64,000 bases of DNA. It comes from a virus. This document shows, piece after piece, positions 2,477 to 56,814 of this stretch (position 1 is the stretch's first letter; each line of letters begins with the position of its first letter). The stretch spans positions 1 through 64,000 of IMG/VR virus record IMGVR_UViG_3300022669_000027; one strand, given 5' to 3'. A program made the position numbers and the translations under genes. The notes below the pieces were generated by a model. That model saw nothing but the letters and a program-made list of their open reading frames with translations, searched no databases and was not told the origin of the DNA.

Positions 2477-3058
2477 ATGGCAAATAAATCATCTAAAGGA
2501 GGAGAATTTGAAAGGGAATTTTCAAAAATATTCTCTAAATATGTATCTAATGGAAAAAGAACTGATATTTTCTGGAGGACAGCTCAATCTGGGGGCCGTG
2601 CGACCCAAAGAGCCAAGCAAAATTTGAAAACGGAGGGCGCATATGGTGACATAACTTGTCTGGACAGCACCTATTCTTTCGTCACCGAAGCCTGTTGTTT
2701 TGAACTCAAAAGAGGATACAACAACACTAATTTTCAAGATATGGTGGACGGTACCAAAAAAGAACCGGAATTAAAAAAATTCTGGACTCAATGTGAAAGA
2801 GACAGGGAACTTGGAGGACGGCTTTTTTCTATTGTGGTGACGAAAAGGGATCGAAAAAAACCAATTATCACCATTCCCAGAAAATTACATTATCTTATTT
2901 CTCATAAAATAGGATTATGCTTGTATAATAGGATAGATATTTCTTATAAAGGAATGAGTACAACATCTATTCCTTTAGAAGAGTTTTTGGAAAACGTCCC
3001 CGCTTCTTCCTTTTTACGGATACTCAAAGAACAACTACGGAAACAAAAAGAAAGGTGA
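2477..3058 (+). CDS. PD-(D/E)XK-type nuclease, possibly a Holliday junction resolvase
   Basis: This 193-residue protein has the layout of a small restriction-like nuclease. An N-terminal helix carries a conserved glutamate region (GGEFEREFSKIF, about 8-19), followed by a WRTAQSGGR segment, then GDI (about 56-58), and FELKRG (about 75-80) supplying the ELK part of the motif. In this superfamily these residues bind Mg2+ and cleave DNA. In a phage recombination and repair operon, a branched-DNA or end-processing role is plausible, but the specificity cannot be read from sequence. The C-terminal tail is strongly basic. Confidence 0.65.
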   Translation: MANKSSKGGEFEREFSKIFSKYVSNGKRTDIFWRTAQSGGRATQRAKQNLKTEGAYGDITCLDSTYSFVTEACCFELKRGYNNTNFQDMVDGTKKEPELKKFWTQCERDRELGGRLFSIVVTKRDRKKPIITIPRKLHYLISHKIGLCLYNRIDISYKGMSTTSIPLEEFLENVPASSFLRILKEQLRKQKER

Positions 3059-3063
3059 ATCAT

Positions 3064-4434
3064 ATGCCGTTGTCATCTGTTTATAAAAAATTAATGGCCC
3101 TCAAAAAAGAACGATCTTCCAATGCGAAGATTGAGATTCTAAAAACGTATTTGGAAGATCCTATATTCGATGTGGTGGTGCGAATGGCACTTTCCCATGA
3201 TAAAATATACAACATCAAATCATTCGGAAAGTATGATCCAGAATCCAGAGGAGGATCTTTTAAAGAAATCATCAGATTTCTTCAAATGCTGGAAGAACAA
3301 GACGGAGTTACTAAAATTCAAAAAGAAGAACTTCGCCAACTGGCTTCCGGGAATCCTGAAACTTTTTATGTAGTAGAGAGAATTGTCAATAAGGATCTGC
3401 GTTGTGGAGTACAAGCTGCTTTAATAAATCAAGCGGTTCCTGATACTGTTTTTGTGGTGCCCTATATGCGTTGTTCCACAGAAAAGGTAGGGATCAAAAA
3501 TATTACATACGACGGTGGGGCTTTTTGTCAAAAAAAAGCTGATGGTGGATTTTGTTATGGATATAATGACAGTGAATCAGGAGAACCGTTATTGATGACC
3601 CGGAACGGTAAATACATGAACATGCATGGATTTTTCAATGAAGACATTCGTAAATTGAGAAAAACTGATGAAGTGATCACAATGGAGATGACGGCTGTAG
3701 ACAAACACGGCAACGATCTCCCAAGGGAAATAAGTAATGGCTTGGTCACCAAAGCTATACGGGGCACCATCACCAAAGAAGAGGCTGCGTTGTTCCGGGG
3801 ACAAGCTTGGGACATCATTCCCCAAAAAGATTTTTGGAACGGACTCTTCCCCACGCCATATGAATTGCGTTGGAGGAGGGTCACATCAGTGACCCGGAAT
3901 ATGGATTTAATCAGTAGAATTTATTCTAGGCGCGTGTATTCGGAAGAAGAAGCCCGTATATTTTTTTCTGAAATGAGAAAAAAAGGACTTGAAGGAGCCG
4001 TCCTCAAAAACAGAACTTCTCCTTGGAAATCTCACACCAGCCCTCATCAAGTAAAACTCAAAAGAAAACATTGCGCAGAATTCATCGTCACCGGATGGTA
4101 TTATGGCAAACCAGGCTGGAAATATGAAAAATGTTTAGGGGGTCTTAATTTTGAATCCGTAGACGGGTTGGTGAAGTGCAATACAGGTTCTGGATTTACT
4201 GACAATGACAGGGGATTTTTGGGATTTGATAAAGACATGAATCCTTTGATAGACGAACAGATTGTGTCTGATTTGGATAAATGGATAGGGCAGATTATAT
4301 CTGTAGAATTCGATTCTTTGATCAAAGACAAAAACAGAAAAGACGGAACATGGTCATTGTTTCTACCAATATTTGATAAGCCCCGCCCTGATAAAGTAAA
4401 AGCAGACAATTATGAATATTTAAGGAGTCTATAA
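3064..4434 (+). CDS. ATP-dependent DNA ligase
   Basis: Seals nicks in duplex DNA during phage replication and repair. The nucleotidyltransferase motif I (KADG, lysine near residue 158) gives the AMP-accepting lysine. Motif III lies around EMTAVD, motif IV is EGAVLK and motif V QVKLKRK, followed by an OB-fold-like C-terminal domain. At about 456 residues it matches T4-type phage ligases. The ATG at 3064 follows AAAGGTG at a good distance and is preferred over a GTG at 3055 that overlaps the preceding stop. The last 35 bp plus the junction (4402-4436) recur at 6800-6834. Confidence 0.88.
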   Translation: MPLSSVYKKLMALKKERSSNAKIEILKTYLEDPIFDVVVRMALSHDKIYNIKSFGKYDPESRGGSFKEIIRFLQMLEEQDGVTKIQKEELRQLASGNPETFYVVERIVNKDLRCGVQAALINQAVPDTVFVVPYMRCSTEKVGIKNITYDGGAFCQKKADGGFCYGYNDSESGEPLLMTRNGKYMNMHGFFNEDIRKLRKTDEVITMEMTAVDKHGNDLPREISNGLVTKAIRGTITKEEAALFRGQAWDIIPQKDFWNGLFPTPYELRWRRVTSVTRNMDLISRIYSRRVYSEEEARIFFSEMRKKGLEGAVLKNRTSPWKSHTSPHQVKLKRKHCAEFIVTGWYYGKPGWKYEKCLGGLNFESVDGLVKCNTGSGFTDNDRGFLGFDKDMNPLIDEQIVSDLDKWIGQIISVEFDSLIKDKNRKDGTWSLFLPIFDKPRPDKVKADNYEYLRSL

Positions 4435-51984: not shown

Positions 51985-52602
51985 CTATATCAAAGAACCG
52001 TTGCTCATTTCTTCTATCCACTCTGCCTGGTGGTATCCTTCAGGCACCAGAGAATTTACTTTTATTTGGAAGTGGAGCATTGCAGAGCCTTCGAACCTGA
52101 TAGAGTTTGTAACCCGAAGGCATCTACAATCGGATTCTGTAAGTTCAGGAAAATCTTTTTTTGCCTCAAGATAAAGTTCTTTATATAGCCGTAGGTCGGT
52201 TCCGTAACAATCTGGAATAATAACGCAGTTCCATATTTCACCATTAGTCCGTACCATCTTTGTTGTGTTCATGGTTGTTTTTCTGGCAGACTTAGGAGCA
52301 GGCTTTATTATCTCCGATTGAATTTCCATATCTTCGATTTTAGAAAAACCGTACCAGTCCGTGTTGTTCGCTACCGGAGCCGCGCTTTCTTCCCATCCCA
52401 TTTTCTTAAAAAGCTGGACAGAAGAATCTGAAAAAGAATCAGAAGTCGCTAACAAGTGTAGATGCCCGCTGATTTCGTCCACTATCTTCGCTTTGGACTG
52501 TGTTGTATCAATGCCTACTGCGAGGTCACCATTCATTTCCTCAGCGGCTTCCATGATTACTTCCCGGCGTACTGTTTTGATGATTGTTGTCCGTGCTTGC
52601 AT
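51985..52602 (-). CDS. First gene of a leftward accessory operon, hypothetical
   Basis: 205 residues from the ATG at 52602 (AGGAG upstream), about 40 bp after the promoter at 52651-52679. Upstream codons of the same frame are open but lie in the promoter and terminator. The protein is mixed alpha/beta with a helical N-terminus, GIDTTQSKAKIVDEISGHLH near 30-50, and a Ser/Asp-rich middle. No family recognised. Its strong promoter, shared with the moron, suggests expression separate from the structural genes. Confidence 0.68.
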   Translation of the reverse strand: MQARTTIIKTVRREVIMEAAEEMNGDLAVGIDTTQSKAKIVDEISGHLHLLATSDSFSDSSVQLFKKMGWEESAAPVANNTDWYGFSKIEDMEIQSEIIKPAPKSARKTTMNTTKMVRTNGEIWNCVIIPDCYGTDLRLYKELYLEAKKDFPELTESDCRCLRVTNSIRFEGSAMLHFQIKVNSLVPEGYHQAEWIEEMSNGSLI

Positions 52603-52650
52603 TTTGTTCTCCTGGTTGATTTGTATACCGTTTCCCTTACCTTCAAGTAC

Positions 52651-52679
52651 AGTATATTCTGATACGGAAAGAAAGTAAA
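52651..52679 (-). promoter_or_regulatory. Leftward promoter TTTACT-N17-TATACT
   Basis: On the minus strand, TTTACT (52679-52674) and TATACT (52656-52651), 17 bp apart. Identical to the moron promoter over 33 bp (52631-52663), including 20 bp beyond the -10, which suggests a shared operator as well as RNA polymerase contacts. Confidence 0.75.
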
Positions 52680-52718
52680 GAAAAAAATAACGTATTTCGA
52701 TATTTTTTTCTCGCCAAC

Positions 52719-52756
52719 AAAAAGCCCCTCTCTTTCTTGTCGGTGAAGAGAGGGGC
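52719..52756 (-). terminator. Rho-independent terminator upstream of the 52.65-kb promoter
   Basis: GCCCCTCTC (52724-52732) and GAGAGGGGC (52748-52756) form a 9-bp stem. On the minus strand the stem is followed by five T residues (52723-52719). It insulates the accessory operon from terL transcription. Confidence 0.8.
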
Positions 52757-52905
52757 AAAAGGAGGGTAAGCGGAGAACAGAATAATAAAAAACGCTTACT
52801 AACAACGGACAACACTAATGCTTCGGGAAAGAAGCACAACCACTGGAACCCTTACTTGGCCCTCTCGATTTAGGAATATCCGTTACTAAATTATTATACA
52901 ACGGA

Positions 52906-52936
52906 AAAAAGAAAAAGGGGAAATAAATATTTCCCC
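52906..52936 (-). terminator. Rho-independent terminator after terL
   Basis: GGGGAAATA (52917-52925) and TATTTCCCC (52928-52936) form a 9-bp stem with a 2-base loop; the minus strand continues with a run of T residues (52916-52906). It lies about 45 bp past the terL stop. Confidence 0.75.
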
Positions 52937-52982
52937 CCGATCCATGTAACCGATAACTGTACCTACTGCATACAACAATAAT

Positions 52983-55784
52983 TTATAAACCGGAAAGCCG
53001 CGTCTGTTCTAATACCCTTTTCTTAATAGGGAATTGACCGTGTATGTAGTATCCACCGGCATCGCAATTGGACACTATCGGACTATGCTTAGTTAATTTA
53101 AAATACCCATAATCAGGCACCGTCAAACAATATACGTCCTGGTCTTCTTCTGGATTCATGGTAACAAGTTCTACTGCAGTATTTTGCAGGGGGAAGGTAT
53201 CTGTCCCTTTTAAATACCTCTCCACAATATTGACAAGTATACTGGACAGCATCCACTCCCGACTTTCTTCTGGCCGCCGCTGTACACGCCTTTGAACAAT
53301 ACTTATTGCGCTTTTGAATTTCCGCTTCATACTCCTTTTCACAGTGGGAGCAAGTAAACCTGCCTCGTTTGTGGAGTTTATGTTTGACTTTTTGGTAATT
53401 TTCACGAGCCTGTTTTCGTCCTTCCTCTGATTGATGCCAAGCCCGTGCCTTCTTTTGGCTGTCCCCGTCAGAAGTGAAACTGCCCCTCTGAAACCCGTTC
53501 CGTACCCGTTCTTCCAGATGGTATTTTGCATGATCGGAACAAGACACAAGTTCCAGATTCTCAATTTCGTTATTGTCCGGATCATGGTCTTTATGATGGA
53601 TGACATACCCCTTTGGAATTGGGACCACCTTGTCTTTATAGATTTCCCTATGTAATAACCTAACGCCTTTACTGCCAAGGAAACACTGCCAATATCCCCC
53701 GTGTTTAACATAGGTATTTCCGTTATAAACTTCTGTCCTTTGTTGGCCTTTCCTATTTCTACCCATTGCAAATCCTCCGTCAAAAATAAATGATCAGGTG
53801 TAGCTATTATATAATAGCTACGTGCATCAGGTAAAGAAAAAACGTACTTGTATACTTTCTGTTGTTTCTTTTTTATACCTCCCTTAACATAGGAACTCCA
53901 ATCCTCATTACTCACCCTTACCTTGCCCGTGCGCGGAATGTCCTTAAATCTGAAAATCCCCTTATCTGTTTCTACTAATTGATCCCCTCCGAAACAAATA
54001 TCATCTCCCTTCCCCTCTCCTTTTTCCGGGAGACCATTCGCATCATAGGCCTGCTGTTCCAGAGAATCCGTATAAAACGGACACTCTGATGTATTGACCT
54101 TGTACCGACGTTCTCCTTGAGAATTGCAGAACATACCGTTCATAGAGGCAATCCTGTCTTTAGGAACTGGGTTGCGGCTTCTCCTTTTTATTCGCCATCG
54201 TTCATCTTTAAGCAATTGTAGATCAGACTCAGTAGCATTCTGACTTTTTCTATTTTTTGAAGTAGCATCAGGATACACTGTGATGGGCCAACCATGATAT
54301 CTGCTGTTGAGTACCCGAATTGTATCAGGAGTATCGAAACTGTTAACAACTTCATCCACAGCTATCGGTGACCCATCCCTCAATACATGAACTACTGCAC
54401 AGCCTCTCCCTACATTAAAGTCCATTCCTATATGAAGAGGCTCTTTCTGACGGGGATCTATTCTCACATCAGAATGATTATGCTTCCTACTGAACATATG
54501 GTATACAGTACCGGACGTAAGATTGGTGAAAATCCCTTCTACATACGCCTCTAACAAATTCTCATCATAATTACCTTTCAAACTGTCCACATAATCCTCT
54601 GGGAGATTCGCCTGATTGGAATATGTAGAGGCCCTGACATATATATGTTCTTTTGAGGGGTTCTTTTCCCACCTGTTATACACGAAGTTAAACCCCTCTG
54701 GGGTAGTATATGCGCATACCTGGTTCGTTGGACTGCCCGGTAATTTCTGGCGATTTCTTGCTATGATCTTATTCCATGCGTTCTGGGCATTCTTGAATTT
54801 CAGGGTATCTATCTCATCAACATGACTTCTGAACGCTTCGTACCCGATAATACGATTGGGCTTATCCAATGTCCTTATGACAAACATACCTCTGTTCAAA
54901 AGGTAGATAACATTTTCAGACTTATTGTGGAGGTAGGGGACATTGGCTGTATCAAGGAGTTCCAAAAGGCGAGGGATAAGAATGAGACGTGCAAGATCAT
55001 ACGTAGGTTCGTACAAAGCTACTGTAGACCTGGGCCACATGAATTTATCTCGGATTGCCCTGGCCAATAATGTCTGTGTCTTGCCGCTATTATGATGAAT
55101 ATGTCCATATTCATCCACATAATTATTTGTATTTAGTACCTGTATATCCCAATAAACCTCCTTCACTTCCTTTACCGAAACCTTTATTATATCCGTAATA
55201 GACAAATCACTATTCTTCAAAGAGACAGGGTGGGATTTTAGAACATCGTTTGATAATGAGTGACATGCTCCAGCGTCCTCTCCTCCCTGAAGAAATTGTT
55301 GACCATATTGACGGGATAACTCTCCATAATTCACCAAAGAATCTACGTCTTTTTGAGAATAATGCCCTTCATCTGAAAACAACAATTTCAAATCAGATCC
55401 CGAAGTGGTCTTTGGAAGGTCTCTGTTCAATCGATAAAGGCCGGAGGAGTATCCCAATTCAGAAATCTGTTGATAAGTACCGTGAGATGAAAGAGAGTGG
55501 TGATGCCCGCTTGATACAAATTCTCCGTGCTGCGATTGAACTCGGAACAGATAGTCCTTACCTTTTGGGAACGCACCACTGGTTGGAGAAAGCACGAATT
55601 GATTACAGTTCTGATCATAACTTAAAACGCGCTCTCCTGGCAATATATCGCAAATATTCTTGAGCCCATTCTCTGTCCATATGCGGGTATCTGCCCGCAT
55701 ACAACCGAAGCCTCCAACGAAAGCTGGGTACTTGCAATCTAACCAGAAGAAGTCAGATTGAGGTTGTGTTAAATCCCATCCCAT
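52983..55784 (-). CDS. terL: Terminase large subunit interrupted by two inteins
   Basis: 933 residues as encoded, 418 after removal of two inteins (residues 28-232 and 597-906). Extein motifs: Walker A GGFG joined to SGKTQ, Walker B with VDEID (about 322-326), coupling motif TTPEG (about 360-364), and the RNase H-like nuclease with GMDFN (D455), VYPDATS (D506) and GDDI joined to CDAGGY (D595). It translocates and cuts concatemeric DNA into proheads. Intein 1 splits the P-loop, intein 2 splits the nuclease active site, so splicing is needed for both activities. Start preceded by AAAAGGACATAG. Confidence 0.92.
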   Translation of the reverse strand: MGWDLTQPQSDFFWLDCKYPAFVGGFGCMRADTRIWTENGLKNICDILPGERVLSYDQNCNQFVLSPTSGAFPKGKDYLFRVQSQHGEFVSSGHHHSLSSHGTYQQISELGYSSGLYRLNRDLPKTTSGSDLKLLFSDEGHYSQKDVDSLVNYGELSRQYGQQFLQGGEDAGACHSLSNDVLKSHPVSLKNSDLSITDIIKVSVKEVKEVYWDIQVLNTNNYVDEYGHIHHNSGKTQTLLARAIRDKFMWPRSTVALYEPTYDLARLILIPRLLELLDTANVPYLHNKSENVIYLLNRGMFVIRTLDKPNRIIGYEAFRSHVDEIDTLKFKNAQNAWNKIIARNRQKLPGSPTNQVCAYTTPEGFNFVYNRWEKNPSKEHIYVRASTYSNQANLPEDYVDSLKGNYDENLLEAYVEGIFTNLTSGTVYHMFSRKHNHSDVRIDPRQKEPLHIGMDFNVGRGCAVVHVLRDGSPIAVDEVVNSFDTPDTIRVLNSRYHGWPITVYPDATSKNRKSQNATESDLQLLKDERWRIKRRSRNPVPKDRIASMNGMFCNSQGERRYKVNTSECPFYTDSLEQQAYDANGLPEKGEGKGDDICFGGDQLVETDKGIFRFKDIPRTGKVRVSNEDWSSYVKGGIKKKQQKVYKYVFSLPDARSYYIIATPDHLFLTEDLQWVEIGKANKGQKFITEIPMLNTGDIGSVSLAVKALGYYIGKSIKTRWSQFQRGMSSIIKTMIRTITKLRIWNLCLVPIMQNTIWKNGYGTGFRGAVSLLTGTAKRRHGLGINQRKDENRLVKITKKSNINSTNEAGLLAPTVKRSMKRKFKSAISIVQRRVQRRPEESREWMLSSILVNIVERYLKGTDTFPLQNTAVELVTMNPEEDQDVYCLTVPDYGYFKLTKHSPIVSNCDAGGYYIHGQFPIKKRVLEQTRLSGL
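53067..53996 (-). mobile_element. TerL intein 2, in the nuclease active site
   Basis: 310 residues, starting CFGGDQLVETDKG after GDDI and ending KLTKHSPIVSN before C907. Block B is YIIATPDHLFLTEDLQW; block F is VYCLTVPDYGYF. C1, N310 and C+1 are intact. The linker between blocks B and F has no recognisable endonuclease in the intein frame; its translation is basic and unusual. The same DNA encodes a full HNH protein in another frame (53113-53766). Confidence 0.85.
53113..53766 (-). CDS. HNH homing endonuclease in an alternative frame of TerL intein 2
   Basis: 217 residues with its own ATG preceded by GGAGG seven bases upstream. HNH core: GYVIHHKDHDPDNNEIENL (about 53-71) then DHAKYHL. C-terminal zinc motifs: FTCSHCEKEY...KYCSKAC and YTCQYCGEVF...KYCSRTC. 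The frame differs from TerL by two bases, so this is a nested gene, not an intein domain. It begins in the codons after intein block B and ends inside block F. HNH enzymes of this type cut intein- or intron-less alleles to drive homing. Translation from an internal site on the terL mRNA is inferred. Confidence 0.85.
   Translation of the reverse strand: MGRNRKGQQRTEVYNGNTYVKHGGYWQCFLGSKGVRLLHREIYKDKVVPIPKGYVIHHKDHDPDNNEIENLELVSCSDHAKYHLEERVRNGFQRGSFTSDGDSQKKARAWHQSEEGRKQARENYQKVKHKLHKRGRFTCSHCEKEYEAEIQKRNKYCSKACTAAARRKSGVDAVQYTCQYCGEVFKRDRYLPPAKYCSRTCYHESRRRPGRILFDGA
55089..55703 (-). mobile_element. TerL intein 1, in the Walker A loop
   Basis: 205 residues, starting CMRADTRIWTENGLKNI after GGFG and ending VDEYGHIHHN before S233 (SGKTQ). 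Block A includes ILPGERVLSYD; block B is EFVSSGHHHSLSSHG; blocks F/G are VYWDIQVLNTNNYVDEYG and HHN. The linker (about residues 120-200) is not endonuclease-like in this frame. Its complementary strand encodes an HNH protein (55202-55663). Confidence 0.85.
55250..55663 (+). CDS. HNH endonuclease encoded antisense to TerL intein 1
   Basis: The only rightward gene in this region. The open frame runs from 55202; candidate starts are TTG 55250 and ATG 55256. The HNH module is unmistakable: EHRLIMSDMLQRPLLPEEIV (55241 on), DHIDG, HNSPKNLRLFENNALHL and PKWSLEG. It matches the common phage family with EHRLVM...LGRPLLP.EVVHHIDG. The core (55241-55420) is opposite the intein linker; the C-terminal part runs opposite blocks A and B. 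The start codon is uncertain because part of the HNH-family N-terminus lies before the first ATG and no strong ribosome-binding site is seen. It may be a functional antisense homing endonuclease or a decaying one. Confidence 0.7.
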   Translation: MIMSDMLQRPLLPEEIVDHIDGITLHNSPKNLRLFENNALHLKTTISNQIPKWSLEGLCSIDKGRRSIPIQKSVDKYREMKESGDARLIQILRAAIELGTDSPYLLGTHHWLEKARIDYSSDHNLKRALLAIYRKYS

Positions 55785-55817
55785 ATCTATGTCCTTTTAA
55801 ATTTTTCAAACAACACT

Positions 55818-56174
55818 TCAATCATATTGTTCCTGTTCATTTCCTAATTCCCATGGGAATTGGTCCCAGTTGAAAAAATGAAACTGTATAAGATCGAAGA
55901 GAAGCGATACATACTCCGTATCTAAAAGTTGATCCTGATGAAAATGATCGAACCAACTATCAACAAACATGTCTGAGAAAGGACTGTGTTTGGCGAGAAT
56001 CTTACTAGCTATCCAATTTGATTTCACTAATAGAAACTTCTCCTCGTTACTCCAACTTTCAGGAAGAGATGATGTAATACATACATCCTTTTTCAAAGAA
56101 TATAGATGCAGATAAACTTCAACTCGCTCTCCCTTCAAGGAAATGCTCCCCATCGTTTGGATCCCATCTTTCAT
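55818..56174 (-). CDS. Hypothetical protein upstream of terL
   Basis: 118 residues, acidic and aromatic-rich (FDHFHQ, FHFFNWDQFPWELG near the end). Start at 56174 follows AAGGAAGGGG. It is immediately upstream of terL with a 33-bp gap. No family recognised. Confidence 0.65.
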   Translation of the reverse strand: MKDGIQTMGSISLKGERVEVYLHLYSLKKDVCITSSLPESWSNEEKFLLVKSNWIASKILAKHSPFSDMFVDSWFDHFHQDQLLDTEYVSLLFDLIQFHFFNWDQFPWELGNEQEQYD

Positions 56175-56189
56175 TTATTTCCCCTTCCT

Positions 56190-56447
56190 TCAATTATTCA
56201 AACACCATTCCGACATAGAATGAATTGCAATTACAATATCCCCCGAACCCTTCCCGTCCAAGACAATGTTACCTGGCTGCTTTCCATGACCACAACAACT
56301 GGTCAGAGTCTTCAAACCTCCCGCGTTAAGAGCAGCTACAATATGAGATATGCAAAAATCAATAATATGAACCCTCCCATTTAAAGGCATAGGGACCGAA
56401 CATTCATAAGATCCCCGCTCACAACAGCTTTCAGGTTTCTTTATCAT
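56190..56447 (-). CDS. Small conserved phage-type CCGHG protein
   Basis: 85 residues. The pattern ISHIVAALNAGGLKTLTSCCGHG (quoted here in part: LKTLTSCCGHGKQPG) recurs in many phage hypothetical proteins. Cysteine-histidine cluster may bind metal. It overlaps the next upstream gene by 17 bp. Function unknown. Confidence 0.68.
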   Translation of the reverse strand: MIKKPESCCERGSYECSVPMPLNGRVHIIDFCISHIVAALNAGGLKTLTSCCGHGKQPGNIVLDGKGSGDIVIAIHSMSEWCLNN

Positions 56448-56814
56448 CTCTCAGCATCTCCATAAATTGAATTTCTGATATTATATGAATACCTATGTCT
56501 TTGCATTCTTGTAAAATAGGATCGTTATCGATATTGTATCCTTTAACAAGATGAGTTGTATTTTCATCCAACTTATCCTGAATTTTCGGAGTCGTTCGAC
56601 CCATGTAATACTTGAGTTTGCCTATGCTCAGAAACCTGAAATCTCCCCTGAACAAAAATATACAATCTTTCAAACGGGTATTTTCTGAATGATCTTGAGG
56701 AATATCATTAATAACCACAATAATTTCCCATTCATTATCCCCATTGTGCTGAGATACAATAGGAACCTCCGCCCCTGCCTGCGTAATCACTTTTACTGTT
56801 TGGTGGAATCCCAT
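56431..56814 (-). CDS. Small protein with a BRCT-like C-terminal domain
   Basis: 127 residues. Residues about 65-122 have the shape of a single BRCT domain: a KLKYYMGRTTPKIQDKL strand-loop-helix, TTHLVKGYN strand, a helix ending CKDIGIHIISE and the final FMEML helix. BRCT domains bind phosphopeptides or DNA ends and occur in NAD-ligases and repair proteins. A free-standing BRCT protein in a phage would be unusual. Coupled to its neighbours. Confidence 0.5.
   Translation of the reverse strand: MGFHQTVKVITQAGAEVPIVSQHNGDNEWEIIVVINDIPQDHSENTRLKDCIFLFRGDFRFLSIGKLKYYMGRTTPKIQDKLDENTTHLVKGYNIDNDPILQECKDIGIHIISEIQFMEMLRDDKET

Follow-up and report, generated by a model that had tools for sequence, protein, structure and literature searches.

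Several described systems come close to the arrangement reported here, and the account of them follows the available parts of the cited papers. The dCTP deaminase intein of cyanophage CL131 combines a HintN domain with an in-frame HNH_3 domain (PMC6293099). Inteins have also been described at the P-loop of mycobacteriophage TerL, in a paper whose available text contains 0 occurrences of 'antisense' and 'opposite strand' (PMC5050341). The ShiLan domain is a hidden out-of-frame HNH in a phage methylase, in which the authors found no intein or intron (PMC11855218). The homing endonuclease gene of I-DsqI from Didymium squamulosum lies antisense in a nuclear group I intron, and its own transcription has been proposed (PMC9548176). 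The sequence-only reading of the present locus held that an intein with an endonuclease on its opposite strand had no described example; full-text literature searches, covering some sources in part, agree with this in giving no such description, though an earlier one is possible, e.g. in 10.1101/2025.01.02.630785 or in Gorbalenya 1998 'Non-canonical inteins'.

The terL locus of the window

The window, i.e. the whole stretch of 64,000 nucleotides that was analysed, carries on its minus strand a terL ORF that forms a single uninterrupted frame of 933 aa and runs open across two inteins. Its parts, and the elements on the opposite strand, are as follows.

52983-55784, minus strand: terL ORF, large terminase with two inteins (Terminase_6N, 7.4e-08; Terminase_6C, 2.7e-04)
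55704-55784, minus strand: N-extein, ending at GGFG of Walker A
55089-55703, minus strand: intein 1, 205 aa, Cys1...HHN with Ser at +1, within Walker A; predicted Hint fold
55202-55660, plus strand: probable antisense HNH remnant, 153 open codons; PHROG 10730 match
55241-55378, plus strand: HNH core (EHRL...VDHIDG...LHN...NLR...NALHLK), facing the intein linker; HNH_3 at residues 28-53
55162-55190, plus strand: putative degenerate promoter remnant TTCACT-17-TATTAT, weak, with 4/6 and 5/6 agreement to the TTGACA-17-TAnAAT of relatives at the same place
53997-55088, minus strand: middle extein of TerL, from SGKT onward
53067-53996, minus strand: intein 2, 310 aa, near the nuclease-domain DAGGY motif
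53113-53766, minus strand: second HNH gene, nested in intein 2 on the TerL strand in a different frame (PHROG 15471, 7.4e-27)
52983-53066, minus strand: C-terminal extein

The boundaries of intein 1 are exact, the insertion being at GGFG^SGKT of Walker A. Its model displays a Hint fold (pLDDT 82.9, pTM 0.80) in which the splicing halves are confident and the linker is loose, with pLDDT <50 at residues 141-162. Among solved structures, Foldseek matched it to the Ssp DnaB mini-intein (E 2e-8) and also to RecA and DnaE inteins. A group I intron with an antisense endonuclease gene was ruled out, as no Rfam match was recorded within 52500-56500. The arrangement of intein 2 with its nested same-strand HNH is different from that of intein 1; GGAGG stands 7 nt upstream of the ATG of this second HNH gene, and a single-sequence scan with it as the query gave no loci.

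An HNH module opposite intein 1, claimed earlier from the letters alone, is confirmed by the profile search of the plus frame 55202-55660, which matched PHROG 10730 at 2.9e-44 over profile positions 83-234 of 234; the claim that the intein frame stays open also held, with 0 stops opposite the HNH. The match to Pfam HNH_3 (5.4e-5, 23.2 bits) is slightly below the cut-off of 24.8, whereas full-length members of the family exceed it in 3/3 scanned. The module was said to be full, and this stands for the core, since EHRL, VDHIDG, LHN, NLR and the last His are retained; it does not stand for the whole gene, which lacks the first ~83 family residues, the ATG and the Shine-Dalgarno, with no in-frame ATG ahead of EHRL. 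The loss of ~83 codons, start codon and ribosome site suggests that the window copy is probably a decayed remnant, and the 5' truncation without a credible start therefore makes it probable that the window phage produces no enzyme now. A fragment still produced and functional, whether translation began at TTG 55250, at an internal ATG or without a leader, would agree with the intact core residues and C-terminal part and with the 153 codons that remain open; but the start codon, Shine-Dalgarno and ~83 codons are absent, the promoter is degenerate and a start at TTG 55250 would omit EHR, so that we regard this as unlikely.

Shortened HNH copies occur in the window, in L044/L045 and in L018, and the missing parts all faced the linker and none faced blocks A-B. 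If splicing constrains the overlap, loss should be confined to linker-facing parts, and these few cases fit that prediction. The window copy would thus represent a late stage, in which the 5' part of the HNH has been deleted and the splicing frame survives.

A family of TerL inteins and its probable mobility

The family was surveyed with HNH peptides alone, without regard to the TerL frame. HNH-guided scans covered 80 viral loci (the best 80 of 117) and 8 genome loci, and a later scan the best 80 of 266 relatives; a single-sequence scan with the window HNH as the query gave one locus only. The HNH lies antisense within an open TerL frame, in a constant register, in 104/106 distinct loci, counted once per contig among the best-ranked relatives. 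In this register, HNH codon position 3 is opposite intein codon position 2. The first locus set, window included, has 0 TerL-frame stops opposite the HNH in 91/92, the exception being L092, and the second in 20/20 rows, 7 of which are re-fetched contigs. L093, below the cut of the first set, has no open frame opposite its HNH, and L091 counts for little, as its remaining antisense frames carry only 2 and 1 stops. Free-standing HNH relatives display 5-23 stops in the same register (5/5). By tblastn, nine phages gave strong HNH matches; in the four inspected, Pseudoalteromonas phage PHS3 and three Pectobacterium/Dickeya phages, the HNH gene is full-length (232-236 aa) and lies entirely within the open TerL frame. 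The idea of an antisense HNH gene is thus strongly supported for the family, full-length members having their own start region, but is not supported for the window copy as an intact gene. The canonical bifunctional intein with an in-frame endonuclease is ruled out by the antisense position in the same 104/106 loci.

Further analysis was based on 51 non-redundant members (HNH identity <95%) drawn from 79 parsed, L001 having been left out before counting as a copy of the window. The HNH usually faces intein residues 10-15 to ~246 of ~290, and therefore covers block B, the post-block-A region and the linker; in one member of the 51 (L055) the HNH frame extends 14 residues beyond the intein start. 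The core was placed opposite the linker in the sequence-only reading, and is indeed there; the HNH is not confined to it, as its C-terminal part overlaps blocks A-B of the intein. D113, H114, N126, N133 and H136 are invariant in 48 rows of the HNH alignment. A model of the HNH gave no Foldseek match among solved structures at E 0.001, and with pTM 0.45 and uncertain domain packing it is weak evidence; a profile search of solved structures with the HNH returned no HNH chain.

On the intein strand, a first residue C and a terminal HHN are found in 51/51 members, the +1 residue being S in 48, T in 2 and C in 1. The block B His (H68) is invariant across 49 aligned intein rows, and L090 ends in NHN rather than HHN. 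The family inteins are predicted to undergo protein splicing.

These observations are best explained by a mobile intein in Walker A of TerL that relies for homing on an endonuclease encoded by a distinct antisense gene, a reading to which we assign a probability of about 0.8. The intein would be translated as part of TerL and excised through its Hint domain. The HNH would be expressed in the opposite direction from signals of its own, namely a sigma70-like promoter, Shine-Dalgarno and ATG, which lie within codons of the C-terminal part of the intein. Its product would cleave, at the P-loop codons, a terL allele without the intein; repair of the break would then copy intein and HNH jointly.

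An exact occupied/empty pair is available in E. coli, where MEI003 has an open frame of 802 aa that includes a 336-aa intein and ET729 has the uninterrupted GFG^SGKT. In RefSeq, terL of MEI003 is labelled an incomplete pseudogene and the HNH is annotated on the opposite strand, though the terL frame is open. A plasmid search yielded 3 partial matches of <=39% cover for one query and no match for a second.

Averaged over the 51 members, identity is 0.56 in both the HNH and the intein halves and 0.35 in the extein (minimum 0.11), and wobble divergence is lower in the HNH than in the extein in 20/23 pairs. Dual coding may account for the lower HNH value in part, yet the non-overlapped C-terminal part of the intein is also lower in most pairs. 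This pattern fits joint movement of intein and HNH into divergent TerLs. HNH and extein distances correlate (r 0.86), and much of the inheritance may therefore be vertical; no pair with HNH identity >0.7 and extein identity <0.45 was found among the 51 members. Cutting of the empty site and homing are suggested only by the distribution.

HNH genes commonly adjoin terminase genes, and HK97 gp74 is an HNH protein of that type. The present HNH could accordingly be a packaging accessory of TerL, residing in the intein by history and not by homing; its tie to TerL in the 104/106 loci would be expected. Against this, 782 of 5426 E. coli genomes match the terL region, but coverage of the insert-spanning query reaches >=80% in only 1 of them, and two other matches inspected are without the insert and its HNH. 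The HNH also accompanies the intein across very different TerLs, with extein identity down to 0.11. An accessory role is improbable.

Expression signals and coding on both strands

Start signals of the HNH gene within the intein were compared with suitable backgrounds, and since the members are related and their sequences not independent, the Shine-Dalgarno and promoter contrasts are inflated. A Shine-Dalgarno of >=5 nt precedes 33/51 HNH starts against 59/656 other ATGs on the same strand of the inteins. The best upstream promoter score is 9.33, as compared to 8.26 after synonymous recoding of the intein. A sigma70-like site whose -10 hexamer begins between -37 and -32, a criterion set after a first look at the promoter scores, is present in 28/51 members (mean 5.9 and maximum 12 in 200 recodings); such a site is absent in 23/51, Enterobacter and Acinetobacter members included. 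The orientation of these promoter-like sites against terL would also suit an antisense transcript that chiefly regulates terL, the HNH protein being secondary. However, a regulatory RNA would not require the codon-level conservation of the HNH opposite the free-running linker described below, which makes this very improbable.

When the HNH of the 51 members was recoded synonymously, ~353 intein-frame stops were expected opposite it, and 0 are observed; the other antisense frames carry 554 and 465. For the window HNH alone, a mean of 8.4 antisense stops is expected against 0 observed, 0/2000 recodings reached 0, and 7 and 8 stops occur in the two remaining antisense frames. Long antisense ORFs do arise singly, but a real HNH with a fortuitously open opposite strand, or a real intein with an HNH-like one, is practically negligible as an explanation and chance overlap is ruled out by these counts, the PHROG match at 2.9e-44 and the constraint on both strands.

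This constraint has been elucidated by monitoring codon positions in 16 disjoint non-redundant pairs. The codon tests left out the window, L044, L045 (no start), L017, L018, L090, L091 and L092, and also five loci whose intein start was missed by the search pattern. The 1040 HNH codons opposite blocks A-B show 74/113/112 differences at positions 1/2/3, and the 1697 opposite the linker show 290/205/702. The bootstrap ratio of position 3 to 2 is 0.73-1.34 opposite blocks A-B and 2.73-4.40 opposite the linker. An earlier count on 23 pairs, some of them near-duplicates, gives the same picture, and the C-exteins display an ordinary pattern (1345/835/4262 differences in 9129 codons).

Identity of one protein given the other was compared in 150 pairs. 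The observed/expected identity of the intein frame given the HNH protein is 2.5-3.3 at residues 10-80, 1.6-1.8 at residues 80-140 and 1.02-1.17 at residues 140-247, and that of the HNH given the intein frame is 1.8-3.4 everywhere. In the overlap with blocks A-B both proteins are conserved beyond the demand of the other strand as judged from these patterns, and in the linker overlap only the HNH is. The codon-position and identity patterns therefore point to an N-terminal splicing half coded on both strands and to a linker that largely reflects the HNH opposite it and stays free of stops. In mechanistic terms, the register pairs the wobble base of each strand with a second codon position on its partner strand; both proteins are kept where the overlap includes blocks A-B, and opposite the linker the intein frame needs little beyond freedom from stops.

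Both strands of one DNA stretch thus appear to be kept as protein code, as the two-strand constraint proposed from the sequence had anticipated. That proposal had named two outcomes that would speak against it, a missing HNH profile match and selection on the intein strand only, and neither was obtained. To our knowledge, bacteria and phages offer few documented long antisense gene pairs in which selection acts on both proteins, and proposed cases often concern few genomes. With 51 non-redundant members, a fixed register and the contrast between splicing blocks and linker, dual selection becomes directly measurable here.

Relation to known systems

The family may, more tentatively, exemplify a widespread class of two-strand mobile element, with the splicing catalyst on one strand, the homing nuclease on the other, and the nuclease promoter and ribosome site inside intein codons. 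If so, sharing DNA with the splicing blocks would protect the nuclease tail from loss at that end; the opposed promoters would separate nuclease and terminase expression in time; and decay would start at the nuclease head, as in the window copy. An antisense HNH alters the view of the possible links between an intein and its endonuclease. It also causes gene calling to fail, as in MEI003.

As far as the available parts of the sources go, the canonical bifunctional inteins are alike in having a splicing domain and an intein-tied HNH endonuclease, but in them the endonuclease belongs to the intein polypeptide as an in-frame domain, whereas in the TerL family it is a separate opposite-strand gene with its own start (PMC6293099). 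The mycobacteriophage inteins share the position in the Walker A region of TerL (PMC5050341). The actinobacteriophage inteins of 'non-canonical architecture' (Gosselin et al., 10.1101/2025.01.02.630785) possibly have an HNH in other frames, and they may overlap with the TerL family.

The nearest described kinds, in the portions of the papers at hand, are the methylase with its hidden same-strand HNH (PMC11855218) and group I introns that carry an endonuclease gene in antisense (PMC9548176). ShiLan is likewise an HNH homing element in a host frame that is also open, and its HNH region is a distant relative of the TerL-intein HNH (tblastn 9e-8). It lies on the host-gene strand with no splicing element, while the TerL-intein HNH is antisense and has a splicing domain present, by which a hidden HNH of the ShiLan type was rejected (PMC11855218). 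In I-DsqI-type introns the endonuclease gene is, as here, antisense to a self-splicing host element (PMC9548176). That element is RNA, and the opposite strand therefore need not code for protein, whereas in the TerL family both strands are protein code.

N-terminal part and short forms of the antisense HNH

Residues 1-45 of the full-length antisense HNH appear to resemble a helix-turn-helix. The N-terminal part of the HNH of L023, a full-length member, gave weak matches to Pfam helix-turn-helix families, and the structure model of the HNH places N-terminal helices at residues 3-11, 18-25 and 29-38. This part has been lost from the copy in the window.

Two distant members were also observed, L090 and L091, in a Methylomonas MAG and another bacterium. 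Their antisense HNH is shorter, lacking the C-terminal part, and lies within TerL inteins in the same register as at the remaining antisense-HNH loci. The short HNH may perhaps represent an earlier form, overlapping mainly with the linker.

terL of E. coli MEI003

Coordinates at the MEI003 locus (L100)
2763-3758, (+)
1471-2775, (-)

RefSeq records terL of MEI003 as an incomplete pseudogene with the antisense HNH annotated in its place, although the terL frame is open over 802 aa. The C-terminal part of this TerL carries a direct repeat of ∼29 residues (VVVNSSNPP...NGERR, twice), which comparison of the two TerLs showed to be absent from ET729, an E. coli genome with intein-less terL.

A second HNH gene within intein 2

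53113-53766, (-), second HNH gene, within intein 2 (53067-53996), overlapping TerL on the same strand in a different frame

A GGAGG precedes its ATG with a spacing of 7 nt. Among 80 viral relatives, 19 have no longer same-strand frame at the same offset; the other 61 are nested in such a frame with identical offset, mostly with an intein-like C-terminus. The offset relative to TerL is likewise identical in the TerLs of three named phages.
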